From Siphlonurus alternatus (lineage: Eukaryota > Arthropoda > Insecta > Ephemeroptera > Siphlonuridae), in contig OX463778.1 in the NCBI GenBank assembly GCA_949825025.1, positions 49,314,829 to 49,378,828 on the forward strand: a DNA stretch of 64,000 nt, given 5' to 3'. The position numbers and the translations under genes are program-made. The notes beneath the pieces were generated by a model. It had not been told where the DNA came from and made no database searches. It was given only the letters and a program-made list of their open reading frames with translations. How positions within the stretch are numbered: the stretch's first letter is position 1; every line of letters begins with the position of its first letter. This document shows positions 1-42,501 of this stretch, piece by piece.

Positions 1-2
1 AA

Positions 3-2069
3 ATCACAAGAGATGAATTTAATGAACTAACATCTATTTACGTCTTGGTACCATCGCTGAGTGCTCGACACGATTATATGTCGCGAATGCAACAGGGTAG
101 GCGCCCTAATCATTCAAAGCGGATCATCAAACTATGTTCCTATTATGACATCCTGTCGCTCCTTATTAAACATGAGGATCCTATACTAGTGCATGGGGCT
201 ATGGGTTCAGCCTGGACGAGCAAGAAAAACAGCGTTGGTGATATTAGTGTAATGTCGCCCGGAAACCTCCCTACCTCTGTACAAGTGCTTCTCTGTGGTG
301 GTAAGAAAGGCTACCTTAAACGCGTTGGCATTGGAACTAAAGCCTTTAAATCACATCGAGCTGTGATCATTGCCAATACTGACATACTACCTAATCAGGT
401 AGCAGTTCCACTGGACGTATTTGAATATTTTAAGGATGATGTAGTTTATGCCAATCGACAGCCTACGATTAACACCAAAGGATGTATGCGAGTCACGCTC
501 GTTGTCCGTTATCCCGTAGGATGTAATGTTCTCGGAATACATCCGTGTGTTGTAGGTGCATCGTTTGATGGAGATTACGATGGGGATGAGATGCAGATAT
601 TTTCTAGTGGGGAAAACCCAATGTTCGAGGACGGGCTCTATAGTGCGGAACAGGCAAAACTGCAGAGCCTAGAGCATATGATGTATACTGAGATGAATGG
701 ACTTCCACTCCGTGGCACGTACAACACTATCGCTGCATTCCATATTATGACCCGCTGGCCTGAGCAGCAACTTGATGGGCAGTGGCTTGAGATTTTACAC
801 CGTGAGGCGCTGCGACGCCTTCCCAGTAAGGAAGGATTGTTTTCTTTCAAAGGCTTAATGCAACATCATGGGTCAGCAATTTCACCGTGTTTACGTCATC
901 TCTTTTTGTCGTGCATAGAATTGATGATCGGGCCAAATGTCAGACAGCAAATTAATCTCGATGGTGTTTGGAACATTGACACCTGGAGAGAATTGGAAAT
1001 AATGTGGTACCGTGTAAATAAGGGTCGGGAAGTTATGATGATACAAGATATGGCTTTTCTTTGTTTTGTAACCGATGCTGTGGTTCGTCATTTTGGAATG
1101 AGTATCAGAATCTGTGATCTCTCCGTTCTAAATGAATGTATAAATTCAGGCGCGTGTGAAAATGTCCCCAAAACCTTCAATTCCCTACCTGACATGCAGC
1201 AATACTGGATGCAACAAAACAATGGTATACTAGGTTTCCTACCCCCAAAGTCTGGGCTCTCGATCATCGTCAGCTCGAGATGCAAAGGATCGTCAATTCA
1301 TCTTTGCCAAGCCATTCGAGCATACGGTCCAGTTGTTGTGCATCATTTCGTAAAGGATTTCGTTGATATGTGTCAAAATTTTGGGATCTGTGTCTTTCGT
1401 AACAAAAACAGTGCATGTGCATGGATTCCGGATTCGCTATGGGAGGGTCTCACTGCGCGACAATGCTTCATCGTGGCAGTCAGAGCGAGAGAAAATATGG
1501 TAGCATCCGTTTTACATACCTCCGAGGGAGGTTATGACAGGAGGAGGACACAGCACGTGTACGACGATTTAAGCATCAACAATATGTATTGTGTCGGGAA
1601 TGGAATGCAATCCAAGTTTCCTCCCGTCGTTCAAACTGTTGGGATGAGTCACTTGGTCAGGGCCCTTTGCATGCGTTTTTCGAAACAAGCGTTAACCAAT
1701 GATGCTTCAACGTTTCGGCCAGTCTCCAGACTCCTCCTTCCGACGGACAACATACCAGCTATTGATCGACCCATTGATATGCAGTACAGCTCCACGTCAC
1801 TCGATAGCAAAAACATTGGTATTAAAAATAACAACAGCAGCAGTTGTTTCTCATGTGATAGTGCGAGTATCTCTCGAAATCCGGAAAATTCAAATTTTCC
1901 GTTTTTAACTTCATTTCGTTTTGATTTTGGTGACGATCGTTTTGTGTATAGTGACATACATGGAGGACTTATTTATGGGACACATATTTATGAGTCTGTC
2001 GAACACCAGGACATAGATTCAGCTCGTATAGTATATGAATCTAGAATTGCGGAAAGTGTGAGATCCTAA
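3..2069 (+). CDS. Virus-type RNA polymerase largest subunit (RPB1/beta-prime-like), 5' end outside the window
   Basis: Catalytic largest subunit of a multisubunit DNA-directed RNA polymerase. The frame is open through the left edge, so the N-terminus is missing; about 689 codons remain. Numbering from the TTG at 45, an NRQPT motif (residues 137-141), which in RPB1 lies just before the active site, is followed by DYDGDE with the three magnesium-binding aspartates D177, D179 and D181. The next stretch (about 195-235: SAEQAKLQSLEH, then NGLPLRGTYNT) matches the RPB1 region after the catalytic loop. The rest is too divergent to assign. It has no introns and ends 19 bp before the next ORF on the same strand, which is virus-like spacing. 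Family membership is firm from the catalytic block. A viral origin is inferred from divergence and context. It could be compared with baculovirus/nudivirus LEF-9, which carries a similar aspartate triad, but I see no special resemblance to LEF-9. Confidence 0.84.
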   Translation: MTRDEFNELTSIYVLVPSLSARHDYMSRMQQGRRPNHSKRIIKLCSYYDILSLLIKHEDPILVHGAMGSAWTSKKNSVGDISVMSPGNLPTSVQVLLCGGKKGYLKRVGIGTKAFKSHRAVIIANTDILPNQVAVPLDVFEYFKDDVVYANRQPTINTKGCMRVTLVVRYPVGCNVLGIHPCVVGASFDGDYDGDEMQIFSSGENPMFEDGLYSAEQAKLQSLEHMMYTEMNGLPLRGTYNTIAAFHIMTRWPEQQLDGQWLEILHREALRRLPSKEGLFSFKGLMQHHGSAISPCLRHLFLSCIELMIGPNVRQQINLDGVWNIDTWRELEIMWYRVNKGREVMMIQDMAFLCFVTDAVVRHFGMSIRICDLSVLNECINSGACENVPKTFNSLPDMQQYWMQQNNGILGFLPPKSGLSIIVSSRCKGSSIHLCQAIRAYGPVVVHHFVKDFVDMCQNFGICVFRNKNSACAWIPDSLWEGLTARQCFIVAVRARENMVASVLHTSEGGYDRRRTQHVYDDLSINNMYCVGNGMQSKFPPVVQTVGMSHLVRALCMRFSKQALTNDASTFRPVSRLLLPTDNIPAIDRPIDMQYSSTSLDSKNIGIKNNNSSSCFSCDSASISRNPENSNFPFLTSFRFDFGDDRFVYSDIHGGLIYGTHIYESVEHQDIDSARIVYESRIAESVRS

Positions 2070-2088
2070 TATAAATGCAGTCGGAGTC

Positions 2089-5000
2089 ATGGATGATATT
2101 GAATCGGACGCAACAGAATGTTCGGGGTGTGAGGAAGTGTCGGTGTTCTCTGGAAAAAAACAGAAGACGGGAAAAGAAAAACTAATGCAAGATTTCGTTG
2201 AGGAAAGTAAATTTTACAAATTCGACCGTACGATTGCTACTCATTTTAATGCAAATTCAAGCGAATCAGTATTGTTTGAAAGTGTGAAAAAAGCTTTTTT
2301 AAATTATGAAGAAATTTCCCTCGACTTTCCAGCCCTGTTGGTGTTTTATCTTTTCTCAGTGGTGTCAACCAAGATGCTGACCCTTCTTTTTGACCAAGTT
2401 CGCACAGAAGTTCGCAAGAACTCAGAGGTACTTAAAGAAGTGTCCACAAAGATACCAAATAAGTTACACACAGGGTTACCCACAGAGGTACCTATCAAGT
2501 TACATACAGGGGAACCCAAATGTGAACCCAAAGGAATGTCCATGGGGGTACCCACAGGGGTAGGCAGTTCTTTGGGACCTGCAGAAAAAAATGAAAACAG
2601 CAATGTTTTTTGCATTTTAATACTAAAAAGGGCATTTCAACGAGCCATCGAGAATTGGGAAGGTGAGCACAGACCAACCTTACTAGAATATAACTTATCA
2701 TGTAATACCAATCACAACACACATCATACCTTCCTCTGTTTCTTATGTGAAACAGCACCGAACCTGAGTTTAAAAGATTTAGAGAGAGGCGGAGAATATT
2801 GCTTAGATGTTCTACTAACCAAGGAATACAGAGTCACTAGCATGATACATTTATCAAGAGTAGGAAGGCTTACCCCAAAAGAGGAGACTTATGCAAAACG
2901 CTGTGTTTTTGGTTCGACTCTTCTTAGTAATGTAATCTTTAGGACCAAGAACAAAAGAAAAACAGTTACAGTGAAGACAGAAAAGGCTAGAAAGGTTGAA
3001 AAAAATGTGACTGGTGAAACTCAATTTTCTGTTCTGGACCTAGAAGATGACTTGGAAATGTCGGAGAGTGAGGTATCGGAGGTAGAAGAGGAGGATGATG
3101 ATCAAGAGGATGATTATAACGAAGATTATGAAAAGAAAAATGAAGAGTCGGATAATAACAGTGATGACGAAGAAAATAGTATCGGGGTCAATAGTCAACA
3201 AAAAAACTTTTATATTGATGTGGATGAGGATTTAGGCACGGAGGACTGCGGAAAATTTAGTCAACAGGGTCAAAAAAGTAACGATGTATCAAACAATGAA
3301 GCCACGTACGAAACTAAAAAGAAATTGACAGTCAATAACACAACGTTGACTGAAGAATTCCGTGAAGTACTTAAGGAACTTACATCTTGCCTGGTGGCTC
3401 TTAGGCTCTACTGCAGAAACAACATGTATGATTTCTTGTCATATTTCCGCACACTACCCTACTTTAATCCACAAACAAAAAGATTTGAGTCTGCTTGGAA
3501 TGCTTTCAAAATTAGTGACAACAGATTCATGAAATATAAGTTTCATCACAAATGGTACTTCAATATTACGGCTGAGATTGAGTTTGGAAAACTTAGAGAG
3601 TTTTGGAAAAATCAACAACCATTGGAAACAAATATTCGAGTGTTTGACATGAATGGACTTCCATTAACGCGAGATCCATGTGTGACTCCGTGCCACGTCA
3701 TCAGTGCTGTGTTAGGAAAAGAGACCAATTGGAAGCAGAGGCGTGCTGAGTTTGTCAAGCTGAAGTCCACAAGAAACAAGGGAAGTACGTTTTACAAAAG
3801 GTGTAACTTGAAATATCAGGTAGTTCAACCTGCAAAAAATATCGCAGGTTGCGTGAACGAGGAGGAGTGGGAGAAAATGACATCTGAAACTGTCTTGGAA
3901 TGGTGTTTGGCATCAGCTAGAGTAGAGAACTGGTCATCAATTTTGGATCCAGAGAAGATCCATGAAAACCAGTATATGAGGTGTTTTATATTCGTTCCAC
4001 GGAACACTTGGCAAGAACATATGCTCGGGGTGTACATAAAGAAACCCCCTGAGGAGCCTGAAACACCTAGGAACGAGAACGAAGATTCTGGTATCCGGTT
4101 CGTTAGTCATCTCGACCAGAAATCAGTCGAAGTCACCTCACCCTTGCCCATTACTTCACACTTTCAAGAATATAAAAATAACTCTCGAATAGAGTTTCGA
4201 GAACCCACGGAACAAAGTCAAATGATGATGGAAGTTTGTAGGAGCTCACGCGAACTTAAAGCAACCATCGACCATTTGTATCGGAAAAAACAACAAACAT
4301 TACAAGACCTAGTAAAGAAGACAAGTGAAAGAATACGGACAATCTTTGATAGAGAGTTGTGGAATCTTCAGTTTGATCCAACTGATGGTTCCTGCACCTA
4401 TATATATCGTGATGGTACTGTAGACACTTTTATGAGCAAAGGCTGGCTCTGCTTCATTTACGGAACGTCGCCGGAGTATAAGAGATGTAGTTATGTAATT
4501 GGTGACCATTTAACACTACAGAACTCACTGATCTCAGCTGGAGAAAAAAAAACTCTTTCAGTTCAACCTGATGCAGTGAAAAGTATTGCTTCGTGTGGTG
4601 CGCTACGTTTTTCAAGAGGAGAAATGAACATTATTAGAATGGAAGCAGCAAAAAGTATAAATGATAGGTTTCGAGATAAAAAGAAAAAGAAGACTGGAAA
4701 GCAAAAGCTTATAAATTTAAAGGATGATGAAAGTGAAGATGGGGTGAAAAAATACAGGATTGATGACGTAAAAGATCCAATCGAGACATGGTACGTCCAC
4801 TATTCTACTTCCAATTACAAAGAGAGAAATTGTTTTCTGATTGATTATTCCGTGGGCTCACTGCACTCTGCAAATTGCACCGCATGTGTATGGTCGGTGT
4901 TCAATGAAAATTCACGTGATCACTTTTCTTTAGTTAAAGTCAATGAAGATTTGTATGGGCCATGCACGGTGATATGGGGAGAACTCATTTTTACCGCCTT

Positions 5001-6159
5001 GAAAAATTGTTCGAGAATACAGAACAATGCACAAACGTTCAATCACGTTCTTAAACTAGCAAAATTAGTGACAAATCAACAAGAATGGAATCTGGTCCTG
5101 CATTTTGATGATGGCTGTAAGGCACACGTTTGTCAGGGCACTTTCCAGAGAAAATTTGATCTGAATTATATTAATTATTTACCAGAAACAGTTGAGAGCC
5201 TAGAAGACAGTATCATGGACACTGACAGGGCAGAAGAATTGGAATGCGAATTTGAAGCTTCTTATGAGAGTGGTTCGGCATTACACATCCTGTCTACCAC
5301 CAAGCAAGCCTTGACAACTCCCTTGCGAATCTATAGCTCTATGGTGAATATGAATTATCTCTCCTCTGACTTGGAGAACCTTCCTGATTTCTTTAAGGAG
5401 AGACTCGTTAGCTATGTTCTGATGGCTAGAAGAGCGATGTTAATATCAATCCATAAACTTGCCAGTAAAATGTGCCCCCGACTGGCAGTGGAACCCCTCT
5501 ACCGTGGAGTCGATGATGATAAGCTATTATCTCAGATCATACAGTGGATTCTCGTACCTAGAAAAACGGAGAAATTTCCACCATATCTTTTCCTGCAAGT
5601 GGCATGCCTATGGACCCTCATGTCGAACTCATTCGTTCAACGCGTATGTCCTCTTACGTGTCTTCGAGAATACTTTGCAGTGTTGACCATGCCAGAAGTG
5701 TTACTGAAATTACGATTGTGTATCACAAACCGAGTAAGCCTTTCATCCAGTATCGATGGGCGCGAACGGTGCAAATATTATATCGATAATTATTTTGAGA
5801 GCGACTGGTTAACCTGCCGACTCTCTGAGAACGAAATAGAACGAGTCAAAGGTTCTTTGCAATGTATGTACCTCAAGACTTATGAAAAACTACGGAAAAA
5901 GTTCAGAACGGGGGCTTATTTGACGCAAAACCTTTTTAATGAAACATGTGCATTTAATCTCAAGATTTCCACTGACTTGTATAACATCCAGCAGAAGAAA
6001 AATGAAATTATCGAATCCATTGTTCATAAGGACAGGAAACACATAGTGCAAAAAGACTTTATTACCATGCTAATTAAGGTTTCAGAGGAGAAAGTAGAGC
6101 CAAAACATTTAGTTGGAAGGACTCATAATATAGCCCGGATTAAGGAATTTGAAATGTGA
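2089..6159 (+). CDS. Large orphan protein (1,356 aa) downstream of the RNA polymerase subunit
   Basis: I do not recognise this protein. It starts 19 bp after the polymerase stop and has no introns. Residues about 115-160 hold short degenerate repeats around KLHTG and EVP. Residues 319-365 are an extremely acidic, serine-rich linker (EEEDDDQEDD), followed by a longer region rich in aromatic residues and cysteine. Lysine-rich patches occur near 300 and 865. No transmembrane segment or signal peptide is obvious. No HGQKG motif of a second-largest polymerase subunit is visible, nor any helicase or polymerase motif. The stop TGA overlaps an AATAAA poly(A) signal at 6160-6165, so a single mature 3' end is likely here. 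Tight spacing suggests the same viral source as the polymerase gene and possibly a role in transcription; that is inference from position only. Confidence 0.8.
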   Translation: MDDIESDATECSGCEEVSVFSGKKQKTGKEKLMQDFVEESKFYKFDRTIATHFNANSSESVLFESVKKAFLNYEEISLDFPALLVFYLFSVVSTKMLTLLFDQVRTEVRKNSEVLKEVSTKIPNKLHTGLPTEVPIKLHTGEPKCEPKGMSMGVPTGVGSSLGPAEKNENSNVFCILILKRAFQRAIENWEGEHRPTLLEYNLSCNTNHNTHHTFLCFLCETAPNLSLKDLERGGEYCLDVLLTKEYRVTSMIHLSRVGRLTPKEETYAKRCVFGSTLLSNVIFRTKNKRKTVTVKTEKARKVEKNVTGETQFSVLDLEDDLEMSESEVSEVEEEDDDQEDDYNEDYEKKNEESDNNSDDEENSIGVNSQQKNFYIDVDEDLGTEDCGKFSQQGQKSNDVSNNEATYETKKKLTVNNTTLTEEFREVLKELTSCLVALRLYCRNNMYDFLSYFRTLPYFNPQTKRFESAWNAFKISDNRFMKYKFHHKWYFNITAEIEFGKLREFWKNQQPLETNIRVFDMNGLPLTRDPCVTPCHVISAVLGKETNWKQRRAEFVKLKSTRNKGSTFYKRCNLKYQVVQPAKNIAGCVNEEEWEKMTSETVLEWCLASARVENWSSILDPEKIHENQYMRCFIFVPRNTWQEHMLGVYIKKPPEEPETPRNENEDSGIRFVSHLDQKSVEVTSPLPITSHFQEYKNNSRIEFREPTEQSQMMMEVCRSSRELKATIDHLYRKKQQTLQDLVKKTSERIRTIFDRELWNLQFDPTDGSCTYIYRDGTVDTFMSKGWLCFIYGTSPEYKRCSYVIGDHLTLQNSLISAGEKKTLSVQPDAVKSIASCGALRFSRGEMNIIRMEAAKSINDRFRDKKKKKTGKQKLINLKDDESEDGVKKYRIDDVKDPIETWYVHYSTSNYKERNCFLIDYSVGSLHSANCTACVWSVFNENSRDHFSLVKVNEDLYGPCTVIWGELIFTALKNCSRIQNNAQTFNHVLKLAKLVTNQQEWNLVLHFDDGCKAHVCQGTFQRKFDLNYINYLPETVESLEDSIMDTDRAEELECEFEASYESGSALHILSTTKQALTTPLRIYSSMVNMNYLSSDLENLPDFFKERLVSYVLMARRAMLISIHKLASKMCPRLAVEPLYRGVDDDKLLSQIIQWILVPRKTEKFPPYLFLQVACLWTLMSNSFVQRVCPLTCLREYFAVLTMPEVLLKLRLCITNRVSLSSSIDGRERCKYYIDNYFESDWLTCRLSENEIERVKGSLQCMYLKTYEKLRKKFRTGAYLTQNLFNETCAFNLKISTDLYNIQQKKNEIIESIVHKDRKHIVQKDFITMLIKVSEEKVEPKHLVGRTHNIARIKEFEM

Positions 6160-9812: not shown

Positions 9813-10802
9813 TCAGGAAACTGGAGTAGCATGTACACACAATTTTCGAAAAATCAAAATTATACATGCCATGATAACTAGAGCTACAAAACAGGCGGCT
9901 CCTATTCCAATGTAAAACCAAATCGATTTACATGGTGTCTGGTGTAAAATTTCGTTATTACACGATGATTCAATGTCCCTTTCTAATTGCTTCATCTTAA
10001 CATTACAATTTACTAGCCTAAATTTAGACAAACTACAATATTGTTGATCATTGGTGATACTTTTACTCTTCATTAAGAAATTACTCCTGAAGTTTTCACA
10101 ATTACTACAGTCCCAAGGGTTTCCTGTAAGAATTATGAATTGGACTCGACAGATACCTACTAGACTTGGAACTGGTAGAAATAGAAGTCGGTTTTTAGAG
10201 ATGTCAAGGAATTCTAGACCTGGCAAGCCAATCATCATCCATACGGGCAATCGTGTCAATTTGCAATTTGCCAGACTGATGTATCGAAGGCTTGGGATTT
10301 TCAACCATGCTAATATTTTATGATCATGTTCTGCCTTTGTTTCTTGGAGTTGTTCACCGATGTCTTTGTTGTTGGCGAGCGAGAGCCACTTGAGTCCCTT
10401 ATGGACGATGAGTTGGGAACTATTTATCGAGCAGTACAGGCATAATGATGGACTTAAACCGACCTCGTTGGTTGACAAGTCAAGCTTCTCCAGCCATTGC
10501 AGCCCGATAAATGATCCAGGACAAAGCGAACTGATGACGTTATCGCTGAGGTCAAGCACCTGCACCAGAGGGAATGCTGAAAGAGCATTTTCTGGCAATT
10601 CATACAGTCTGTTTTTTGCGAGCACCACCTGCTGGTATTTAAAAGAGCCTCCAGTTGGTACCACTCGTCGTCCTTGTTTTGAACAATCCACCTCAGTTTT
10701 ATCACGCACAAAATGACAGCTACATTCACGAAGAATTATCTCAGGACAAAACTGTGTGTATATCGGAGTTAGTGCAGTTAGTACCACCAATAGGTAGTAC
10801 AT
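9813..10802 (-). CDS. Leucine-rich-repeat type I membrane protein (329 aa)
   Basis: Probable cell-surface recognition or adhesion protein. I chose the ATG at 10802 because it opens a clear signal peptide (MYYLLVVLTALTPIYTQ). A consensus-like splice acceptor (TTTTTTTAG) lies about 20 bases upstream, so earlier in-frame codons are probably intron. After the signal come a cysteine-rich LRR N-cap (FCPEIILRECSCHF), about five or six leucine-rich repeats (for example LVQVLDLSDNVISSLCPGSF), and an LRR C-cap beginning NPWDCSNC. One transmembrane helix (about 295-318; IWFYIGIGAACFVALVIMAC) precedes a tail of some ten residues, too short for a signalling domain. The entire coding region is one exon. 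Such LRR-plus-TM proteins are common in arthropods; I cannot name an orthologue. Confidence 0.88.
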   Translation of the reverse strand: MYYLLVVLTALTPIYTQFCPEIILRECSCHFVRDKTEVDCSKQGRRVVPTGGSFKYQQVVLAKNRLYELPENALSAFPLVQVLDLSDNVISSLCPGSFIGLQWLEKLDLSTNEVGLSPSLCLYCSINSSQLIVHKGLKWLSLANNKDIGEQLQETKAEHDHKILAWLKIPSLRYISLANCKLTRLPVWMMIGLPGLEFLDISKNRLLFLPVPSLVGICRVQFIILTGNPWDCSNCENFRSNFLMKSKSITNDQQYCSLSKFRLVNCNVKMKQLERDIESSCNNEILHQTPCKSIWFYIGIGAACFVALVIMACIILIFRKLCVHATPVS

Positions 10803-11424: not shown

Positions 11425-11850
11425 CTTTCTAAAACATCGATCTTTGTGTGCAAAAATATGAAACAAAGAAGCACGTAGTTGTATAAATTGTACAATTTAT
11501 TATCAGTAGTATAACGTTTTTACTGACTTATCGTCCATTATTCATAATTTCAATAAATCAGCTAACATGCGTATGTTAATGTAATAGAAAATACGTTGAA
11601 CAAAGAAGACTTCCAGCGAACGTCGCACGTTGATGGGTCTATACCTGAAGAACCTCTGCTACAATGCCTACAATATTTGACTCCGGAAGAAATCAGATGT
11701 AGACTTGCCCTTCTACCTGTTATCACTTGCTTAGTTTATATGTAAAAATTTTGATAAATGTATTAAAAATGTAATTACTGTATCATTCATTCAGACGAAA
11801 AGAAGATAATGTCTATTATACTTTTAACCTCCAGTGGTTGGAAAATAATT
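11425..11850. other. Intergenic DNA before the repeat array
   Basis: No gene seen. A block at about 11610-11720 has a more coding-like composition (GACTTCCAGCGAACGTCG, then CTCCGGAAGAAATC), but no frame stays open long enough to call. Confidence 0.5.
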
Positions 11851-14020
11851 CAGAGTATTTTTCTGAACATGACCCGTACCTTGAGTAAGTAGACGTACTT
11901 AGGTTTCGAATACGCAAGAGTCCCGTCTTCGATCAATGAAATATTCGATTCGAATTTTCGATCAAAATTACATCTATATTAGCCCGGGATAGTCATTCAC
12001 GTCTCCATAATTATACGCAAACGGTAAACTCGGCCCATATGTTTCCATGACCTATAATACCGCATTAGAAAGTACCTTAAAGTCCTCCCTGGCTTTCATA
12101 TTCAGAACCGGGTCGTCCTGGCGTCCCGGATTTCAAAATAATTTTTTTTTTTTTTTTTTTTTTTTAGTATATAATTACTAAACACGTATTATAGCACTTT
12201 ACGTTAGCTCGACTTGTATTTTAGCTCTTTTAAGTTTTTAAAACTTATTTTTTTTTAAATAAATTATCTTCTTTTCAAAAAACGTCTTTTAGAAGGATTA
12301 ATCGGAACCGCGGGTCCGATTCAGAGTATTTTTCTGAACATGACCCGTACCTTGAGTAAGTAGACGTACTTAGGTTTCGAATACGCAAGAGTCCCGTCTT
12401 CGATCAATGAAATATTCGATTCGAATTTTCGATCAAAATTACATCTATATTAGCCCGGGATAGTCATTCACGTCTCCATAATTATACGCAAACGGTAAAC
12501 TCGGCCCATATGTTTCCATGACCTATAATACCGCATTAGAAAGTACCTTAAAGTCCTCCCTGGCTTTCATATTCAGAACCGGGTCGTCCTGGCGTCCCGG
12601 ATTTCAAAATAATTTTTTTTTTTTTTTTTTTTTTTTTTAGTATATAATTACTAAACACGTATTATAGCACTTTACGTTAGCTCGACTTGTATTTTAGCTC
12701 TTTTAAGTTTTTAAAACTTATTTTTTTTAAATAAATTATCTTCTTTTCAAAAAACGTCTTTTAGAAGGATTAATCGGAACCGCGGGTCCGATTCAGAGTA
12801 TTTTTCTGAACATGACCCGTACCTTGAGTAAGTAGACGTACTTAGGTTTCGAATACGCAAGAGTCCCGTCTTCGATCAATGAAATATTCGATTCGAATTT
12901 TCGATCAAAATTACATCTATATTAGCCCGGGATAGTCATTCACGTCTCCATAATTATACGCAAACGGTAAACTCGGCCCATATGTTTCCATGACCTATAA
13001 TACCGCATTAGAAAGTACCTTAAAGTCCTCCCTGGCTTTCATATTCAGAACCGGGTCGTCCTGGCGTCCCGGATTTCAAAATAATTTTTTTTTTTTTTTT
13101 TTTTTTTAGTATATAATTACTAAACACGTATTATAGCACTTTACGTTAGCTCGACTTGTATTTTAGCTCTTTTAAGTTTTTAAAACTTATTTTTTTTAAA
13201 TAAATTATCTTCTTTTCAAAAAACGTCTTTTAGAAGGATTAATCGGAACCGCGGGTCCGATTCAGAGTATTTTTCTGAACATGACCCGTACCTTGAGTAA
13301 GTAGACGTACTTAGGTTTCGAATACGCAAGAGTCCCGTCTTCGATCAATGAAATATTCGATTCGAATTTTCGATCAAAATTACATCTATATTAGCCCGGG
13401 ATAGTCATTCACGTCTCCATAATTATACGCAAACGGTAAACTCGGCCCATATGTTTCCATGACCTATAATACCGCATTAGAAAGTACCTTAAAGTCCTCC
13501 CTGGCTTTCATATTCAGAACCGGGTCGTCCTGGCGTCCCGGATTTCAAAATAATTTTTTTTTTTTTTTTTTTTTTTTAGTATATAATTACTAAACACGTA
13601 TTATAGCACTTTACGTTAGCTCGACTTGTATTTTAGCTCTTTTAAGTTTTTAAAACTTATTTTTTTTTAAATAAATTATCTTCTTTTCAAAAAACGTCTT
13701 TTAGAAGGATTAATCGGAACCGCGGGTCCGATTCAGAGTATTTTTCTGAACATGACCCGTACCTTGAGTAAGTAGACGTACTTAGGTTTCGAATACGCAA
13801 GAGTCCCGTCTTCGATCAATGAAATATTCGATTCGAATTTTCGATCAAAATTACATCTATATTAGCCCGGGATAGTCATTCACGTCTCCATAATTATACG
13901 CAAACGGTAAACTCGGCCCATATGTTTCCATGACCTATAATACCGCATTAGAAAGTACCTTAAAGTCCTCCCTGGCTTTCATATTCAGAACCGGGTCGTC
14001 CTGGCGTCCCGGATTTCAAA

Positions 14021-14060
<40 letters not shown>

Positions 14061-21491: not shown

Positions 21492-21548
<57 letters not shown>

Positions 21549-28532: not shown

Positions 28533-29159
28533 CTATAAAATTCGCTTGATTTCTCTAAACAATCCACCGAGAAATATTTCAGCTACATACTGTCCAGTTG
28601 CCACATAACAGTCTTTTAGTTCAGCATCATAACTGATGTTCATAAAGTCTTCGCAGTATTCTCGCGGGATCTCAATTGGATTTCGCGTATCTCCAGAATG
28701 ATAAAGGAATGGAGGAGCGTCAGTTACTCCACGAACTGGTTCTGTTCGACGTTTTTCAGGGTGCTCTGCCCACATTCGTAAATATGGAGTGGCCATGAAA
28801 CACCTCTTGTCAATTTTGTTCCATTCGCAGTAAAAATTGTTTTTTAACTTATCTGTAGTTTTGTTTTGGTCCCCATCCTTGTCTCCTTCTTTGCCTTCAT
28901 CTTTATCTTCCTCCAAAAATTCTCCATTTTTATCGTAAGGATAATGAGACACGGCATCGCAACCAGATGCGGTGAACTGAACACTACCGAACGGACACTG
29001 TAACCCTTCTGGACAATAGTATCTCAGAGGTTCCTCCTCCCATGTGATATCTGATGCTGGTCTAGAATATTCCCCCGAATCATATCGGTATTTATTTAGC
29101 TTATTTTTCGCGTAAATGTAAGCATTGTCAATATCTCTACTCGTTAGACCACTCGACAT
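28533..29159 (-). CDS. PIF-0/P74-like protein, N-terminal portion only (208 aa)
   Basis: Resembles the N-terminal part of PIF-0 (P74), a component of the per os infectivity factor complex that large arthropod DNA viruses use to enter gut cells. The fit rests on the spacing of LTSRDIDNAYIYAKN near the start, YYCPEGLQCPFGS (47-59) and SGCDAVSHYPY (65-75), and on a C-terminal block EYCEDFMN ... DCYVATGQYVAEIFLGG. An acidic insertion (about 80-100) lies between. PIF-0 proteins are usually over 600 residues with C-terminal membrane segments; here the frame stops at 208, about 45 bases before the SINE, within A- and TA-rich DNA. No continuation is visible downstream on this strand. It is probably a truncated endogenous copy or one part of a split gene. 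PIF-5 is the alternative family. Confidence 0.6.
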   Translation of the reverse strand: MSSGLTSRDIDNAYIYAKNKLNKYRYDSGEYSRPASDITWEEEPLRYYCPEGLQCPFGSVQFTASGCDAVSHYPYDKNGEFLEEDKDEGKEGDKDGDQNKTTDKLKNNFYCEWNKIDKRCFMATPYLRMWAEHPEKRRTEPVRGVTDAPPFLYHSGDTRNPIEIPREYCEDFMNISYDAELKDCYVATGQYVAEIFLGGLFREIKRIL

Positions 29160-30703: not shown

Positions 30704-30765
<62 letters not shown>

Positions 30766-30774
30766 CTGCATTAC
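29920..30774. other. Intron-like AT-rich DNA with a (TA)n tract at 30707-30761
   Basis: No gene seen; it lies between two candidate minus-strand exons. Confidence 0.55.
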
Positions 30775-30909
30775 CTTTGTTAGCCGTGTCTGAGGACCAG
30801 GATTCATTTCAACATCATTAGAGAGTAGTATTTTACGAGTGATAAAACACTTGTTATCATTAATACCTAACAAACTCTCTCTTCCAGAAGGATCTGTGTA
30901 TTTGTTAAC
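30775..30909 (-). CDS. Phase-0 exon carrying a canonical 2A ribosome-skipping motif
   Basis: A 135-nt exon with acceptor TTTATTGTTTCAG and donor AAG/GTAATG encodes 45 residues that include ILLSNDVEMNPGP (core at 30793-30816). DVExNPGP is the invariant core of 2A peptides, where the ribosome fails to join Gly to the final Pro and makes two chains from one ORF. The hydrophobic ILLS stretch before it is also usual, but the residue before the core Asp is Asn, not the common Gly. Known cellular 2A motifs occur mainly near the start of non-LTR retrotransposon ORFs, so this could be an exonised retroelement fragment. If translated with its neighbours, the downstream product would begin at this Pro. 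Confidence 0.6.
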
Positions 30910-31864
30910 CTGAAACAATAAAAAAAAAACTTTTAAAAAAGTTAAAAAAAAAAACAGCTTTTGTGAATCTTAAGCATGTTAAATTTTTAACAAAAGTAAA
31001 AAAAAAAAAAAAAACATTTCAATTGAAATCTTAACTTAAATACACTCGGCGCTGCTGCGGTATATCAACGTGTTTTAACTTTTTTACCCTACAAAACGGA
31101 TGGTATAGTTTCAAATCGCTCTGCTGACTCTATTATTCCCCAATTTAGCATTGAAAATAAAATAAATGATAAGTATTTTAATAACAGCATTATTCTTTCA
31201 ATTCTTATGCACCAATTTTCAGCATCACTCAGCATTGGCAGTAGGAAAATATATTATGCATGTTCAGCGAAAACTGTGGAATGAGATTCTTCAAGGTAGA
31301 GTTTTATTTCATTCAAATTATGGTTAATGGCAACTCTCGATCCCCGACAATTATGTAAATTATTGATATTAATCATTCTTTGTGATTTTTTTAGTTTTTT
31401 TTTTAGATGCACCGGTAGATATATGAGATATTTTTGTTTTGTATCTTACATAAGTTTACTTATAATATAATATAGCATTGTTATTTAATTTTACATTTTG
31501 TTTAAAAAAAAATGTATTTCGAACATATATATTTTTGTTTTTATCTCCTTTCAATATTTCGAACGTACTTCTTGGTGTTATTTACTTTCTTCTTTCAGGT
31601 GAATTAATTACATGGGTTGTGTAAATTAAGGAAAAAACAAAAAAAAAATCGTAAACCATGTAATAATATTTTACAGTATTGACTGTTAAAATCAAATAAT
31701 AGTACATAAATATTTCAGGGTTGATAAAAAAAAAGAACATTCACTCTCTATCTCTCTCTCTCTGTAACTCTAACAATGTTCATTAGGTTTTGAGGTTTTT
31801 ACAATACTTTTCTTGGACATAAATTTGAATCTTGCTACGTGATTGAAGATATTAATAAAAATAA
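30910..31864. other. AT-rich intergenic or intronic DNA
   Basis: No gene seen. A short CT-repeat run (TCTCTATCTCTCTCTCTC) lies near 31745-31763. Confidence 0.6.
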
Positions 31865-32335
31865 TCATGCGTCAGATTTCTCCAAGATTTGCCGCTCAAT
31901 GAGTAGATTCACAATATGAAGAATGTTCGTTTCGTGAGTAGCATCTAAAAACACATGTGTCACAATAAGTGCATCAAGAATTGAGTCAAAATAACTTAAT
32001 ACGTGTTGCTCTGCAGTAACATTCATTGGTCCATACCAGCCGTCACGAGTATTGATCACGAGGGCAATCTCTTCAGTCTCGTGACTAGTAACATTCTCTA
32101 ATAAAAGCGAGCCATAAACGTAAATCAAGTCGTCGTGCCAAATCGCAACGTTGGTTTCATACGTGATAAGAGCATGCCGTGGACTGATGGCATAGACTTG
32201 AACACCCAATACGGTGTCGAAACGAGCAACGCCGCTTCGCTTCATCCATGAATGTGTGATATGTCGACTTATAAAATACGTAGCGGTGAAACTTATCAGT
32301 CCTGTCAAGAATCGCTGTGGAAGATTCAAACCCAT
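31865..32335 (-). CDS. Small membrane-anchored orphan in the viral cluster (156 aa)
   Basis: Not recognised. The start (MGLNLPQRFLTGLISFTATY) gives a moderately hydrophobic N-terminal segment followed by a basic stretch, suggesting a signal anchor. The remainder is a compact domain of alternating hydrophobic strands with no cysteine, ending in a charged tail. It begins 56 bp after the helicase stop on the same strand, in a cluster with a PIF-like gene, so a structural or envelope role is possible. It lacks the cysteines expected of PIF-3. Confidence 0.68.
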   Translation of the reverse strand: MGLNLPQRFLTGLISFTATYFISRHITHSWMKRSGVARFDTVLGVQVYAISPRHALITYETNVAIWHDDLIYVYGSLLLENVTSHETEEIALVINTRDGWYGPMNVTAEQHVLSYFDSILDALIVTHVFLDATHETNILHIVNLLIERQILEKSDA

Positions 32336-32391: not shown

Positions 32392-33717
32392 TCAAAGATT
32401 GTGCATTTTTTCATAAAAGGTTCGTCCAGCTACCGAGAAATTATTGATAATTTTCATGTCCAGTCGATTAATGACAATAAAAAGTTTTGAGAAGTTCTTA
32501 ACACGACTTAACATGACATACAGTTGTCCTGGACAGAATACTTCGTTCAAGTAGACGACTGCCTTTTCAAATTCCGATCCTTGCGTCTTGTGTGCTGTCA
32601 GAGCATACGCTAATATGACGGGGAACTGTCGCCGAAATATATCTTTCTCTCCAATACTCTCAACAAAGGTGTGTCTCCCGATGCAACGCGTAGTTCCGTT
32701 TCCGACTCGAATAGAGATTCTTTCTTCTTTTTTATTGATATCTGTTATGACACCGGTGGTACCGTTACATACGCCAAGCTGGTGAATATTCACAGTAACC
32801 AGTACGAAGGCACCTACCTTGAGTTCGAGTTTTAAAGGTGCAAGCTCATTTAGCTTGGCTTTAGCGTAAGGTGTAAGGTTAGCATTGATACCATTCATGT
32901 TATCAATGGCTTCCAACTCCACGAGCTCTGTTTCAAGTTTTAGAAGCGTACGTGTATTGTGGTCCATGACACGAGATCTCGTGGTATAAATGTGTGACAA
33001 AAATCGTACTCTCATATCCCTTGCATGAAACCTAGTCCAAATTTGATCCTCGAGTTTTTGTATATAGTCAATGGAGCGAATACGCAAACCGAGTCGCTGT
33101 ACGTCCTCCTGCGTACATTCTCCTTTACGAATACGCAATAGGATGGCAAACCAGTCGCTACCATCAACACCGATGTACCGATGAGGCTGTGTGAGTTGGA
33201 CGTGCGAAAAATTGCATTCGTCCCAGGTTGTCGTGAGATAGCATGGCTTGTCTTGCACCGGAGGAAGCTGATAAGGATCGCCAGCTACCACGAAGCGGAT
33301 GCCGCCAAAAGGTTTTGTACTACGTCTGCGAACGATCCGGCCAATACGGTCCACGAGTTCAAAAATTTGCGTCCCGAGCATGCTGAACTCATCTAGTATT
33401 AATACAGAGGTTGTTCTCCAAGAGTTTTTCTTTTTATCGGACATCTTGTGACATATTTTCCGTGGCGTTGATTTACCGATACCACAGCCGCTCCATGAGT
33501 GAAGAGTGTAGGCACGAATACCAGTACAGCTGGCCAGGTGTTGGGCGGCCTTGCCAGTAGATGCTGTGAGCGCTACTTCTTTTCCTGCACCTTTAAACTT
33601 ATTGTACAGGTGAACAATCAAGTGTGTCTTACCCGTGCCTCCGGGACCTGTGATGCAGATATTACGATTCATGCGTTGCAGCAATGTGACGTAATTGTCA
33701 AATTGTGTATCCATCAT
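32392..33717 (-). CDS. PIF1-type superfamily 1B DNA helicase (441 aa)
   Basis: ATP-dependent 5'-to-3' DNA helicase of the PIF1/RecD-like family, acting in DNA replication or repair. Walker A is GPGGTGKT (24-31); TASTGKAAQHL (51-61) is motif Ia; ILDEFSML (107-114) is Walker B; VVAGDPYQLPPV (143-154) is motif III with its glutamine; the C-terminal AHKTQGSEF (375-383) and YVMLSRVKN (400-408) are motifs V and VI. All expected catalytic residues are present and the ORF is uninterrupted. At 441 residues it is a minimal core, like helicases encoded by several large arthropod DNA viruses, rather than a cellular PIF1 with an N-terminal extension. It is divergent from the next rightward gene; their starts lie 73 bp apart. 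A Helitron helicase is unlikely, as no Rep domain accompanies it. Confidence 0.93.
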   Translation of the reverse strand: MMDTQFDNYVTLLQRMNRNICITGPGGTGKTHLIVHLYNKFKGAGKEVALTASTGKAAQHLASCTGIRAYTLHSWSGCGIGKSTPRKICHKMSDKKKNSWRTTSVLILDEFSMLGTQIFELVDRIGRIVRRRSTKPFGGIRFVVAGDPYQLPPVQDKPCYLTTTWDECNFSHVQLTQPHRYIGVDGSDWFAILLRIRKGECTQEDVQRLGLRIRSIDYIQKLEDQIWTRFHARDMRVRFLSHIYTTRSRVMDHNTRTLLKLETELVELEAIDNMNGINANLTPYAKAKLNELAPLKLELKVGAFVLVTVNIHQLGVCNGTTGVITDINKKEERISIRVGNGTTRCIGRHTFVESIGEKDIFRRQFPVILAYALTAHKTQGSEFEKAVVYLNEVFCPGQLYVMLSRVKNFSKLFIVINRLDMKIINNFSVAGRTFYEKMHNL

Positions 33718-33790: not shown

Positions 33791-34237
33791 ATGGAACATG
33801 TACTACGCAATAGTATCATTGACGCACTCAACAGGGGCCCATCACCTTTAATAGTACGAGGTATCGATGGAAATTTGACGATCGCACCCGCTCGTGAGCC
33901 ATTTCTGAAGGTGCTCACGACAACCTTCAAGGGGGTACCTCTTTGCGATCCGAGTGGGAGGGCATATGACCTGACAGAAATATCAGACGATGACGTCCGA
34001 CTCTCACACACGTCGATCGGCCACTTGGCTTTCCCCGAAAGGTCAAAGCTTACACCGTGGTTCAACAGGATAGCAAAGCAAGCTGATTTATTGGACGAGG
34101 AAGATTTCGATGACCGATGCCGTTTAGAGCCTACAATTGATCAATCTTTCCCATGGCCTCGGGTGGTAACTTGTACGTCCGCCCTCCTTTGTGTGGCTAT
34201 GTTGAGTGCTGTAATGTTTAATCCCGAAAAAGTTTAA
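33791..34237 (+). CDS. Small tail-anchored orphan in the viral cluster (148 aa)
   Basis: Not recognised. I chose the ATG at 33791 because the earlier in-frame ATG at 33695 overlaps the divergent helicase gene. The soluble part starts MEHVLRNSIIDALNRGPSPL, is acidic around DEEDFDD, and ends in one C-terminal hydrophobic helix (VVTCTSALLCVAMLSAVMF), the arrangement of a tail-anchored membrane protein. It ends 88 bp before the PIF-2-like gene on the same strand. Small single-helix proteins next to PIF genes are common among viral envelope proteins, which is suggestive only. Confidence 0.7.
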   Translation: MEHVLRNSIIDALNRGPSPLIVRGIDGNLTIAPAREPFLKVLTTTFKGVPLCDPSGRAYDLTEISDDDVRLSHTSIGHLAFPERSKLTPWFNRIAKQADLLDEEDFDDRCRLEPTIDQSFPWPRVVTCTSALLCVAMLSAVMFNPEKV

Positions 34238-34325: not shown

Positions 34326-35327
34326 ATGGTTTTATCGAAAAGAAAATCTCGACGCGGCATTATTGCTATATTTGCTTGCCCTAGCATCCTAACAGTGTGT
34401 TTGCTCAGTTACAAATATGTCACGGGTGGTTTTAAAAGAAACAGTGTTGCTGGAGAGACAACACACATTAAACAAGATTTAACTCGAGATTATCAACCTC
34501 TCTATGGTTTTGGTAAGAGAGATATGGCATTGTGTGATTGTGATTTCGCACACTTATCACAAAACGATTGCGACCTGCGTGAGCCGTTCAAAACTTGTCA
34601 ACATTGTCGTGGGCTGTCAATGTGTCAGCGTTATGAAGATATCATACCAGTGCAAACAAGTAGGACAGAAAAGATTATTTTTCATGAAGATGTGAATCGA
34701 GGAAAGTGCTTACCACTACAAAATACGACCTTTGCATGTAATCCGCATGTTGGGAGTATGATTTTGGCTCAACGAGATGGTCAACCTTTCTGGTTTTGCC
34801 AACCGAAATATCCCAACATCGTTCAAAAGAAGCAATACTATGGTGACGTGAATCAAGTTGTGGCGTGCAACGGACGGGGTACGCTTGCGCATCCCGCATC
34901 ATTCATTCCCTGGGAGCAGGAACGTAACTATGATCCCAACTATGCGACCTGTCTCTGTGAAAAGGGGACCATTGCGGGTGATACAAACGAGCACGGCTAC
35001 AACATGAGTTGTGTTACTGATCCATGTTCTCCTGGAGTTAGGATTGGACAAACAGACTGCTCTTGTCCTCCCGGAATGGTTTCGTGTCCTTCGGAGGCTT
35101 TCACGATAGACGAGCAGCAATATATTTGTCCCGATGCTATACTAAGACACTATGTTACATGCAAACCGGACCCTTGTGGAATTGTTCCTAGTTTTCAATA
35201 CGATGTGGAAAAGAAGACTTGCACTTCAGCGCAGAGTAAAAACATTCGATTCTCTAATGAAGTTCCAAGCAGGGGATTGCCTTATTTACGTTTAGATATT
35301 TGTGGAAGTTCAACGATCATCGACTAA
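34326..35327 (+). CDS. PIF-2-like per os infectivity factor (333 aa)
   Basis: Cysteine-rich envelope protein resembling PIF-2, a conserved part of the entry complex of baculo-, nudi-, hytrosa- and nimaviruses. Seen directly: an N-terminal hydrophobic anchor (residues about 11-31) and 24 cysteines in clusters such as LCDCDF, TCQHCRG, WFCQPKYP, TCLCEKG and TDCSCPPGMVSC. The motifs GKCLPLQNTTFACNPHVGS and SCVTDPCSPG fit the PIF-1/PIF-2 ectodomain pattern. Length is close to PIF-2 (about 380) and shorter than PIF-1 (about 530). The frame is intact with no intron. Together with the helicase and the PIF-0-like fragment it is the best evidence for naldavirus-like ancestry. PIF-1 is the main alternative. 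Confidence 0.66.
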   Translation: MVLSKRKSRRGIIAIFACPSILTVCLLSYKYVTGGFKRNSVAGETTHIKQDLTRDYQPLYGFGKRDMALCDCDFAHLSQNDCDLREPFKTCQHCRGLSMCQRYEDIIPVQTSRTEKIIFHEDVNRGKCLPLQNTTFACNPHVGSMILAQRDGQPFWFCQPKYPNIVQKKQYYGDVNQVVACNGRGTLAHPASFIPWEQERNYDPNYATCLCEKGTIAGDTNEHGYNMSCVTDPCSPGVRIGQTDCSCPPGMVSCPSEAFTIDEQQYICPDAILRHYVTCKPDPCGIVPSFQYDVEKKTCTSAQSKNIRFSNEVPSRGLPYLRLDICGSSTIID

Positions 35328-37908: not shown

Positions 37909-37968
<60 letters not shown>

Positions 37969-37980: not shown

Positions 37981-37997
37981 TCTTGTGTTTTATTTAC

Positions 37998-38340: not shown

Positions 38341-38401
<61 letters not shown>

Positions 38402-39654: not shown

Positions 39655-42501
39655 ATGACGCAAATCGTAAATGACATAAGCTTTCTCATTAGTAAGAAGT
39701 ATTATCGCATTGAAAATGGCAAACGAATATACATGTTAAACGACTTGGTAAATAAAAGTGAAGAGGTCGTCGCCAGTGATTTCTACAGTTTGTACCCAGA
39801 ACTGACTAAAGAATGTATTGATGATCATTTTAATGTTTTATATGGTTGTAGACCGATTGCTCATTATTTCCGTGTGTTAAACCGGTATCTCTATGAAAAA
39901 GTAAGTGATTCGCTGAAGCAAATGATTGATATGGGACAAGGAGAGTGGAAAAGTGTGTCTGATTTGTGCAACGAATCTGTTACGGTCTTCAAGTATCAGG
40001 GAGACACAGTCCCGCTTTGGAGTTTGAAAGAAAATCACGCCTTCATCATTAATAATGGAGTTATGGAAATGTACATTCCGGAGGACATGACTCTACTCAT
40101 GATAAGATTCTTGCAGAGGTATAATCGTGATTATCATGCCAGTGGTCCCGTGAAGAGTGTTATCGTAGACAGGGACCGAACCTTTCACATCTGTCATTAT
40201 AACGGGACATGCCTCACCAACAGGTTGGAGTTCATACCTGATGGATTACCTTTTACATCAATTTTGCACTCTATTATCGTTCTGACAGTTCCTGTTCAAA
40301 CCTCAGTAGTATATTTCGAGTTTCTAGTGGAGAGAACCCTTATGGAGTATTTTACATTCACTCGACGACATCAAGTGTTGTATGCAGAAAACAAAACTAG
40401 TGGTAGTAAAATAATATACGAATACATAAAAGCGGGGCTCATTAGAATCACTCGTAGAGGACCATTGCATTCTGAACCAGAAATCGCCTCACATCTCGAA
40501 AAGGATCTCGATAGAGCCTACACGACGGCAAGAGACGCCTGTGCAAGTGTGAGCTCAGCTTTCAATTGCTTCGTGTTCAAACGCAGTGAACCTCTTCGCA
40601 CACTTAGAATGAGAGAACTTAAGATTTTACTCTATGCTATTAGACATAATATCATGGATCCCATTGCGCTGCAAAAATTACGATCCATGACTTTGGCAGA
40701 CGTGTACCCCCTTGCCGACAAGTCCTTCCTGGAAGCCATCACGAAGAACCCACACATTGAAAAATGCTTTAAGCAACGTATTGATGTAATGGAACTTACA
40801 GTTTGTACGTACTCGAGATTAAACTTTTTGCTACGTAAACTCCAAGATGACATCATATTCACAGTGTGTATTATCAGAGGAATAGACGGTACCCCCGGAA
40901 ACCATGAGTATTATTTCTTTAAGCAAACCATCAACACGATTGGCACGTGCTATTGTATAGAAAATTTAGATGATCTCCATATGATTGTCGGTTCGAAAAG
41001 CGTCGTTGAGAGTGGTTACACCCCCGAATCAATTCCTGAAGTCGTCATGCAACTCCGGCTGAAGAATCCAGAGACCTTTGTCATCATCTTTTTGTGGCAA
41101 AATGATGGAATCGATATTGATTTAGTCGCCACTGCTCATATCAATGCGAGATTGAGATTTTCAAACCATGAAAATCCTCAGCACGTGCAAAGCACGTTTC
41201 AAAGCATGTGGCCTTTGTTTGTTTATTATAAACCAAGCATTTATTCTTCGGTGAGATTCATCAATGAAAAGCCAACTAAAATCACTGCACAGGCCTTAGA
41301 GTTGGCCCACGCATGTCAGAAGATGATTTCATGCCCAAAGAAAGGTGACCCAAATGGACGTGTAGTTGAACATGATCTTTTTGTTTACACCGGAGATATA
41401 AGAAGCAAGTTTTATGGATTGTGTCTTCACCTCAAGCCTATGGAAAGGAGAGACGTTAATTTCGTACACGTTTTCCAAGAAGATGACGTGTTGAGTCATA
41501 TCTTTGTTACCAGGTATGATAATGGTGAGCAAAAATTAATTTGCGTGTTAGGCCAAGAGACGGATATTTTCAATGAAATGGTGACAACGCAATGCCTAAT
41601 TGACGTTCCGTTCATTCTCGTTGACGGAGATTTGGAGCTCGCGGTTCATGCCCACTGCATTAGAAACAAGAGCGTTCCGATCGAACGAGCTGCAAGAATT
41701 GTCAAGTCGATACAACACTTCAAAAACATAGATACAACCTCTTCTTTAGTTGCCGAGATGGTCAAGAACCATTACTGGGAATTTGACTGGTTCGGACACC
41801 ATAGCGAAATATATTACATCACCGAGACAACGACCAATATTCATTTCATGAAGGACCTCTCAGTTTTCTTGCAATTGGTACAAATTTATCGAATGCTCTC
41901 CCTGGATGAATTACAAATTCTTGTTCAAAAGGAGACACAGCAATTCAAAATTAAGAATAATATACATCTCATTCACAGTTTTAGTATTTCTGAATTACTT
42001 TATAAAGTTTTATTAGCACCTGCCGATGAAATTACATGGAGCAATTGCGTCCTCGCCAAGTGTGGGGGTACTATCGTCGATACATCAAGAATTCAGTGTG
42101 TTGCTAGCATTTATATTAGGTACTCTTTTAAGCATTCCATCGCTTTGGCCACATTCATCACGAAGAACCATATAAAGGAGGGTACAATTCTAATTTCGGG
42201 AACTCCCCCCAAAATAGCAAGGCATAAAATTGAAAAAGTAGATATCCTACACGCATTCGAGGTTAGCGATGGTCACTCGCATGAGAGAATGAGACGCGTC
42301 ACAGTTAAAGGAGCACAACTCAAGACGGACTCGATCGCCGGTCTCTTTTCAATTTTTAACAAGTTAAATTTATACAACGCACCGGTGCCAAATCTGTCTG
42401 AACATACAGGTCGTAAAGCCAGCATTATGATAAACGCAATCTATGAGATTGCAAAACAGAATAACTTGTACGTCGACTTTGAATCTTTGATGACCGAATA
42501 A
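39655..42501 (+). CDS. Large intronless orphan protein (948 aa), viral-type
   Basis: Not recognised. It is a long uninterrupted frame with normal amino-acid composition, no signal peptide and no clear transmembrane segment. It starts MTQIVNDISFLISKKYY. The middle contains a basic, helix-rich stretch (RHQVLYAENKTSG onward) and several DxD-like acidic pairs, none matching polymerase, helicase, nuclease or kinase motifs that I know. ATAAG lies eight bases before the ATG (39643-39647), the sequence of a baculovirus-type late initiator, though other viral-type genes here lack it. Intronless form, moderate AT bias and position after the PIF cluster suggest the same viral source; an origin in the host cannot be excluded. 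Confidence 0.78.
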   Translation: MTQIVNDISFLISKKYYRIENGKRIYMLNDLVNKSEEVVASDFYSLYPELTKECIDDHFNVLYGCRPIAHYFRVLNRYLYEKVSDSLKQMIDMGQGEWKSVSDLCNESVTVFKYQGDTVPLWSLKENHAFIINNGVMEMYIPEDMTLLMIRFLQRYNRDYHASGPVKSVIVDRDRTFHICHYNGTCLTNRLEFIPDGLPFTSILHSIIVLTVPVQTSVVYFEFLVERTLMEYFTFTRRHQVLYAENKTSGSKIIYEYIKAGLIRITRRGPLHSEPEIASHLEKDLDRAYTTARDACASVSSAFNCFVFKRSEPLRTLRMRELKILLYAIRHNIMDPIALQKLRSMTLADVYPLADKSFLEAITKNPHIEKCFKQRIDVMELTVCTYSRLNFLLRKLQDDIIFTVCIIRGIDGTPGNHEYYFFKQTINTIGTCYCIENLDDLHMIVGSKSVVESGYTPESIPEVVMQLRLKNPETFVIIFLWQNDGIDIDLVATAHINARLRFSNHENPQHVQSTFQSMWPLFVYYKPSIYSSVRFINEKPTKITAQALELAHACQKMISCPKKGDPNGRVVEHDLFVYTGDIRSKFYGLCLHLKPMERRDVNFVHVFQEDDVLSHIFVTRYDNGEQKLICVLGQETDIFNEMVTTQCLIDVPFILVDGDLELAVHAHCIRNKSVPIERAARIVKSIQHFKNIDTTSSLVAEMVKNHYWEFDWFGHHSEIYYITETTTNIHFMKDLSVFLQLVQIYRMLSLDELQILVQKETQQFKIKNNIHLIHSFSISELLYKVLLAPADEITWSNCVLAKCGGTIVDTSRIQCVASIYIRYSFKHSIALATFITKNHIKEGTILISGTPPKIARHKIEKVDILHAFEVSDGHSHERMRRVTVKGAQLKTDSIAGLFSIFNKLNLYNAPVPNLSEHTGRKASIMINAIYEIAKQNNLYVDFESLMTE

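Follow-up and report, generated by a model that had tools for sequence, protein, structure and literature searches.

A likely mosaic large DNA virus genome, with PIF entry genes beside a pox- and giant-virus-type core, in a chromosome of the mayfly Siphlonurus alternatus

The 64 kb of chromosome 1 of the mayfly Siphlonurus alternatus analyzed here (C1:49314829-49378828, forward strand; the window) holds the 3' end of a cluster of viral open reading frames (ORFs) that spans about 165 kb (C1:49192366-49357329), from a primase-helicase gene to an ORF of 948 amino acids (aa). Our results support the presence of an endogenous large DNA virus in the mayfly chromosome, with several of its genes intact. 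Its gene content suggests that the cluster probably derives from a single large DNA virus whose genome was integrated and in part rearranged; the virus would belong to an undescribed lineage, a mosaic of Naldaviricetes and Nucleocytoviricota, two groups regarded as unrelated. Such a virus would have combined a core of the pox- and giant-virus type (PolB, RPB1, RPB2, a D5-like primase-helicase, an A32-type ATPase, a capping guanylyltransferase, XRN, and an SF2 helicase) with the oral-entry module of naldaviruses, the per os infectivity factors (PIFs) p74/PIF-0, PIF-1, and probably PIF-3, in the same genome. The original prediction, made from the window alone, had placed an endogenous naldavirus at positions 1 to 42501. 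Viral ORFs do lie there, but most of the cluster sits upstream of the window. The label of naldavirus is by itself half right: PIF-1 and p74 are present, and PIF-3 weakly, but the core that surrounds them (A32, RPB1 and RPB2, PriCT_2, XRN, and UDG-like genes) is not the published naldavirus set.

The gene content and linkage of the cluster, the signature motifs in the enzymes looked at, and the chromosomal setting are direct observations. Besides the window, we read 190 kb of contiguous upstream DNA (C1:49124830-49314829), two 10-kb pieces farther up (L026 and L027), and 50 kb downstream; inspection by eye recognized no viral gene in the downstream stretch, and coordinates that carry a locus name (L001 to L028) are positions inside loci taken from this flanking DNA. 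The window and the 28 loci read around it contain no N. An episome or contamination is an unlikely source, because the stretch is gap-free within a scaffold of 55,015,428 bases (55.0 Mb) and host-type genes lie between the viral blocks, and the predicted chromosomal location is thereby upheld.

Long intronless ORFs of virus type were found in the window at or near the predicted positions. Stop-free runs of 1356, 948, 688, and 441 aa occur there, against a maximum of 194 aa in 40 simulated sequences of 64 kb with the dinucleotide makeup of the window, which rules out chance ORFs. The two longest are the large orphans that had been foreseen. The 1356-aa orphan has no Pfam, PHROG, or NCBIfam match at E ≤ 0.1, and the 948-aa orphan has no Pfam, PHROG, or PDB match; lone NCBIfam matches of the latter (E, 0.089) and of a 156-aa orphan (E, 0.022) were judged to be chance. 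A bundled Pfam scan of 119 short window ORFs returned nothing viral. The predicted polymerase subunit is identified by Pfam as RPB1 (Rpb1_2, 6.8e-7, above the cut-off; Rpb1_5, 6.7e-4, below it), but the window opens inside its ORF: the gene begins 412 bases upstream, and the full frame has 868 aa, or 826 aa from the first ATG. It carries a zinc motif, the catalytic motif DYDGDEM, and a trigger-loop-like SEGGYDRRR, and its only match in the whole genome (455,680,777 bases, or 455.7 Mb, in 102 contigs) is the window's own copy. The nearest NCBIfam model is subunit A', which we take to be archaeal, at 5.1e-9 and far under that model's cut-off. The PIF1-type helicase was predicted correctly (Pfam PIF1, 4.9e-27; the Dda-like phrog_325, 4.2e-57), and all three motifs sought in it are present.

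The remaining core genes lie upstream (Table 1). Pfam scans covered 66 of the 72 filtered flanking ORFs of at least 120 aa in 26 loci and, as one bundle, 83 of the 469 further flanking ORFs of at least 50 aa. Matches to viral families were obtained, so the outcome of no viral hits that had been considered did not arise; many further upstream ORFs have no Pfam match at all. Signature motifs are present in RPB1, PolB, RPB2, the primase-helicase, the capping ORF, and the PIF1-type helicase, and were read by eye in A32 and PLA2; the SF2 helicase was also read by eye. The A32 ORF scores 44.1 bits against a cut-off of 22.8, with the pox model PF04665 matched over residues 11 to 194, and its Walker A motif reads GSSGVGKT by eye. 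PolB, a single copy among the ORFs scanned, has exo I and motifs B and C, and our pattern for motif A found none. The D5-like assignment comes from PriCT_2 and AAA matches, without a D5-specific model, and a Walker A motif is present. PDB searches gave no match for the primase-helicase; they placed RPB2 closest to RPC2 of Pol III and PolB closest to Pol delta, followed by other polymerases including a UL30, which are weak pointers and not trees.

Two PIF genes are recognized above the Pfam cut-offs. The 333-aa ORF that had been called PIF-2-like matches PF05092 (PIF) over 99 residues with 35.4 bits against a cut-off of 25; up to E 10, its listed matches do not include PF04631 (PIF2). Since separate Pfam families exist for PIF2 and PIF3, we equate PF05092 with PIF-1 and read this ORF as PIF-1. 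The ORF that had been called PIF-0-like does show a weak match to the p74 N terminus (12 bits, below the cut-off; residues 46 to 79 on profile positions 44 to 79), but it is only 208 aa long, and the stronger p74 region, the C-terminal one, lies on a separate ORF 94 kb upstream. PIF-3 is indicated by 15.8 bits against a cut-off of 22.2, yet profile positions 2 to 119 of 149 are aligned. A cysteine-rich ORF (L018:4598-6346), with a GC content of 0.53 unlike most others, has a very weak PF04631 match (E, 0.34) and was not counted as PIF-2. A six-frame search for PF04631 gave no match at E ≤ 0.001 in the whole genome, and none in 14 control genomes. PDB searches returned nothing for the PIF-1 protein or p74 C, and a single antibody chain (E, 1.6) for the p74 N piece. 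Predicted structures had pLDDT values of 30.5 for the PIF-1-like protein (from a single sequence) and 30.1 for RPB1 (from two sequences).

Table 1. Viral and candidate viral genes, and one host-type ORF, in the window and in the flanking loci
Feature	Position	Strand	Evidence or remark
RPB1-like largest subunit, 3' part	window 1..2069	+	Pfam Rpb1_2, motifs
Orphan ORF, 1356 aa	window 2089..6159	+	19 bp after RPB1 gene
ATP13A3-type polyamine-transporter ATPase ORF, 1150 aa	window 24016-27468	+	Single-exon, open
208-aa ORF, weak p74/PIF-0 N-terminus match	window 28533..29159	-	PF08404 E 0.11
Orphan ORF, 156 aa	window 31865..32335	-	In helicase/PIF-1 block
PIF1/RecD/Dda-type helicase, 441 aa	window 32392..33717	-	Pfam PIF1, phrog_325, motifs
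Orphan ORF, 148 aa	window 33791..34237	+	C-terminal stretch hydrophobic on inspection by eye; helicase gene 73 bp away
PIF-1-like per os infectivity factor, 333 aa	window 34326..35327	+	PF05092 7e-9
Orphan ORF, 948 aa	window 39655..42501	+	
PIF-3-like	L001:5228-5845	-	PF05006 E 0.015, below cut-off
SF2 helicase	L002:3888-5768	+	Helicase_C 2.3e-9 and ResIII 1e-8 in one ORF
UDG-like	L002:8836-9504	-	Pfam UDG E 0.012, below cut-off
PLA2 domain	L002:9552-9866	+	Pfam 3.2e-17
IAP genes	L004 and L015		Pfam
Capping guanylyltransferase	L008:1080-1865	-	Pfam 3.5e-4, below cut-off; KFDG motif
p74 C region	L008:3351-4331	+	PF04583 1.5e-6 and 1.2e-6 (two scans), above cut-off
PolB	L010:6498-9656	-	Pfam 4.6e-40
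RPB2, 914 aa	L011:5728-8475	-	Pfam 2.2e-13
XRN (XRN_N)	L013:1972-3564	-	Pfam 9.3e-14
D5-like primase-helicase (PriCT_2 + AAA)	L014:7537-9999	-	PriCT_2 4.6e-12; ORF reaches locus edge
A32-type packaging ATPase	L028:223-987	+	PF04665 2.2e-11 (full-length ORF)

Spacing argues that the PIF genes and the core genes arrived together. Among 42 hand-picked ORFs, gaps inside blocks are mostly below 200 bp. The A32 gene is followed by ORFs of 1007 and 390 aa, the PIF-3-like gene, and a 190-aa ORF, with gaps of 188, 85, 67, and 88 bp, and a distance of 3.8 kb separates the PIF-3-like gene from RPB1. From the p74 C gene it is 86 bp to its neighbor and about 1.8 kb to the capping ORF, and 88 bp separate the PIF-1 gene from the 148-aa ORF. 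Because A32, the capping gene, and the PIF1-type helicase thus share compact blocks with PIF-type genes, both gene sets were most likely carried by one virus. A purely transposon-derived origin of the helicase was rejected, as a gene of the PIF-1 block lies next to it at a distance of 73 bp. Two or more viruses, one naldavirus-like and one giant-virus-like, might instead have inserted in one region and then been shuffled together; host-type genes and about 19 kb of tandem repeat between the blocks would suit an insertion hot spot, and the p74 N and C matches are far apart. We regard such a mixture as quite improbable, given the tight spacing across PIF and core genes. Three PIF-type genes stand in compact blocks at different places, two of these PIF-type genes have giant-virus-type genes a few kilobases off with no recognized spacer, and there is one RPB1 match in the genome and one PolB among the scanned ORFs.

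Compared with Naldaviricetes (the baculo-, nudi-, hytrosa-, nima-, and filamentoviruses, AmFV, and the LGDVs of ants), the mayfly element shares PIF-1 and p74 above the cut-offs, a weak PIF-3, a B-family DNA polymerase, a second helicase, IAP genes, an arthropod host, and occurrence as endogenous viral elements (EVEs) in insect genomes; the helicase2 of Naldaviricetes is of the PIF1 type. It differs in its A32-type ATPase, PriCT_2 primase-helicase, XRN, PLA2, and UDG-like genes, in an RPB1 and RPB2 that are recognized by cellular RNA polymerase models, and in that the scanned ORFs had no listed match to a P33, PIF-5, or lef model. With Nucleocytoviricota (pox-, asfar-, and iridoviruses and giant viruses) it has in common the A32-type ATPase, PolB, the D5-like primase-helicase, RPB1, RPB2, the SF2 helicase, and the capping guanylyltransferase, which match the core list of that group, as well as XRN, which occurs in giant viruses. 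It departs from Nucleocytoviricota in that no double-jelly-roll capsid or VLTF3 was listed for the scanned ORFs and in its PIF genes, signature genes that, according to PMC10271883, have not been identified outside naldaviruses.

A more conventional explanation is that the element is a deep but ordinary member of Naldaviricetes/Lefavirales, kin to AmFV and the ant LGDVs, whose less derived LEF-8, LEF-9, and LEF-4 resemble RPB2, RPB1, and the capping enzyme, and whose A32-like gene has been overlooked in relatives. We consider this unlikely, although several points speak for it. RPB2 is near LEF-8 in size here. According to PMC12548425, viruses of the LGDV/AmFV kind have two helicases, lef4, lef8, lef9, PIFs, and an AAA+ ATPase placed under packaging and morphogenesis, LGDVs also have iap, and EVEs of the LGDV kind are common in ants (ant EVEs are also the subject of PMC6540820). 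However, A32, XRN, uracil, primase, phospholipase, and innexin are absent from the main text of PMC12548425, and the A32 match here is to the pox model. The counterparts of lef-4, lef-8, and lef-9 (capping ORF, RPB2, and RPB1) were found via general Pfam models, with no lef model listed among the scanned ORFs; Pfam presumably contains lef models.

Similarity searches also argue against an ordinary naldavirus. In a large protein collection with sources including nr, none of 4464 candidates was a naldavirus relative of RPB1 at E ≤ 0.01, and the PIF-1 protein had no relative among 145, although the search requires shared 5-residue words, so that distant relatives can escape it. Its queries were PIF-1, RPB1, and the host-type ATPase only. 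The closest protein found for RPB1 was a 379-aa protein (P0001) on a 2.9-kb metagenome contig (E, 2.8e-61; 33% identity over 57% of the query; 37% identity in the alignment), and the other two matches were fungal RNA polymerase proteins (6.5e-6 and 9.1e-6). A related virus probably exists elsewhere, to judge by this similarity. No relative was found in viral contigs with PIF-1, RPB1, the helicase, the RPB1 alignment, the 948-aa and 1356-aa ORFs, and PolB as queries, or in prokaryote genomes scanned with P0001.

The nearest published PIF-bearing endogenous relatives in the literature searched are the ant LGDVs and their EVEs (PMC12548425). The CjLGDV-related elements of ants resemble the mayfly element as PIF-bearing large DNA virus genes on insect chromosomes, and some contain transposable element insertions and some are transcribed; they differ in host order and gene set, and the mayfly cluster has more than 12 open ORFs of over 300 aa. 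In the literature searched, in which bioRxiv and most subscription journals are not covered, no virus of this kind is described in the listed titles or opening lines of abstracts, and searches for a nudivirus or for double-stranded DNA EVEs in mayflies returned no paper.

Several observations weigh against a single mosaic virus with intact genes. The placement comes from profile matches, and the matches for PIF-3, UDG, p74 N, PIF-2, and the capping enzyme are all under the Pfam cut-offs. Double-jelly-roll capsid, VLTF3, and sulfhydryl oxidase were not listed in the Pfam scans of the scanned ORFs; orphans of 948, 1356, and 1007 aa have no family, so a divergent capsid is still conceivable. PIF-5/ODV-E56 and the P33 sulfhydryl oxidase, for which Pfam presumably contains models, were likewise not listed for the Pfam-scanned ORFs, which included a minority of the short ones; a divergent copy, or one beyond the DNA read, is conceivable. 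No shared upstream (promoter) motif was significant among the 42 ORFs (best corrected value, 0.24), so the case for linkage is one of spacing, and the host-type genes between the blocks (a JmjC gene in several frames and ATP13A3) would allow for more than one insertion. Intactness is not uniform either: the capping ORF overlaps another frame and has no ATG ahead of its KFDG active-site motif, and for that reason at least this one gene may be damaged. The p74 matches are split over two distant ORFs, and the p74 N piece is short and possibly truncated, with a 5S rRNA-like sequence 45 bp downstream (window 28366-28487, minus strand; Rfam, 43.5 bits against a cut-off of 38).

If the reading of one mosaic virus is right, the ancestral virus would have entered midgut cells of the aquatic nymphs via the PIF complex, used its own PolB and primase-helicase to copy its DNA, transcribed and capped its mRNA with enzymes of its own, and loaded its DNA into particles with the A32-type motor, all blocks sharing a single origin. 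The chances are about even that this is the first trace of a lineage linking Naldaviricetes (proposed realm Telodnaviria) with Nucleocytoviricota, either by shared ancestry, the naldaviruses descending from a giant-virus-like ancestor with A32 and RNA polymerase, or by transfer of the whole PIF module between the groups. Mayflies are one of the oldest lineages of winged insects, and such a virus would be placed in them, in a public genome with RNA-seq. PIF genes serve as the signature of one virus class (PMC10271883), and one argument for the separate realm proposed in PMC11654684 is that baculoviruses lack the FtsK-HerA packaging ATPase, the A32-type motor that poxviruses and giant viruses have. 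If a single virus had both PIF genes and such a motor, gene trees could put the origin of baculoviruses to a direct test.

The relic is most likely young enough to retain most of its long frames, and it is possible that some genes are retained for host function. The original prediction had favored domestication, with part of the genes kept by selection as in the bracoviruses of wasps. The long frames are indeed open amid spacers crowded with repeats, cases in parasitoid wasps provide precedents (PMC10259472), and PMC12548425 reports purifying selection on EVEs of ants. Domestication would still be a doubtful account of the mayfly element. Its replication and transcription genes are as open as its entry genes, which fits a young insertion, and an IS1595-type (ISXO2-like) transposase ORF of 353 aa in the window (44540-45601, minus strand; Pfam, 2.4e-10) is also open, so the local mobile DNA may be recent. 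Open frames beside an open transposase ORF fit a recent insertion equally well. The proposed parallel with wasp venom or calyx has no direct basis, the host being a mayfly and not a parasitoid wasp. The third-position GC of the ORFs is mostly 0.32 to 0.47 and window spacers often have a GC content below 0.32, from which no dating follows.

Mobile DNA and host-like genes do fill the spacers as predicted, with (TA)n tracts, a 468-bp satellite (window 11848-15528; 7.8 copies, 97% matches), the open transposase ORF, and host-type genes. Two separate ORFs match the domain of a JmjC-type gene (window 19852-22757, minus strand), which therefore resembles a spliced host gene; it sits between viral blocks. 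The best matches of the ATP13A3-type ORF are from the mayflies Neocloeon triangulifer (57%) and Cloeon dipterum (55%), with the other 118 of the 120 matches listed at 48% or less, and the ORF could be a retrocopy, a native single-exon gene, or a virus-captured gene. Two single-exon membrane-type ORFs with leucine-rich repeats (LRR; window 9813-10802, minus strand, and L010:3442-4509, plus strand), 39% identical and about 95 kb apart near viral blocks, are possibly host duplicates or captured genes. Also single-exon are a 477-aa ORF with three immunoglobulin (Ig) domains (window 49505-50938, minus strand) and an innexin ORF (L015:6543-7766, plus strand; Pfam, 1.9e-98) that recalls the vinnexins of ichnoviruses. 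The ATP13A3, Ig, LRR, and innexin ORFs were rejected as proof of gene capture, single-exon host copies being equally likely.

Four related ORFs (L004:8130-9377, minus strand; L018:2-721, L019:203-1195, and L019:7447-8460, plus strand) with 29 to 66% identity could be a viral multigene family; single scans of two members gave no Pfam match at E ≤ 0.05. Between the p74 and SF2 helicase blocks, a tandem array runs for about 19 kb (L006 to L008); its period, taken from the spacing of 13 like ORFs, is about 1.55 kb. An ORF with a 2A-like motif, NDVEMNPGP, read by eye (window 30709-30969, minus strand) is possibly a retrotransposon remnant, and a repetitive ORF of 1115 aa (window 59587-62934, minus strand) lies on a 462-bp tandem repeat with 98% matches.

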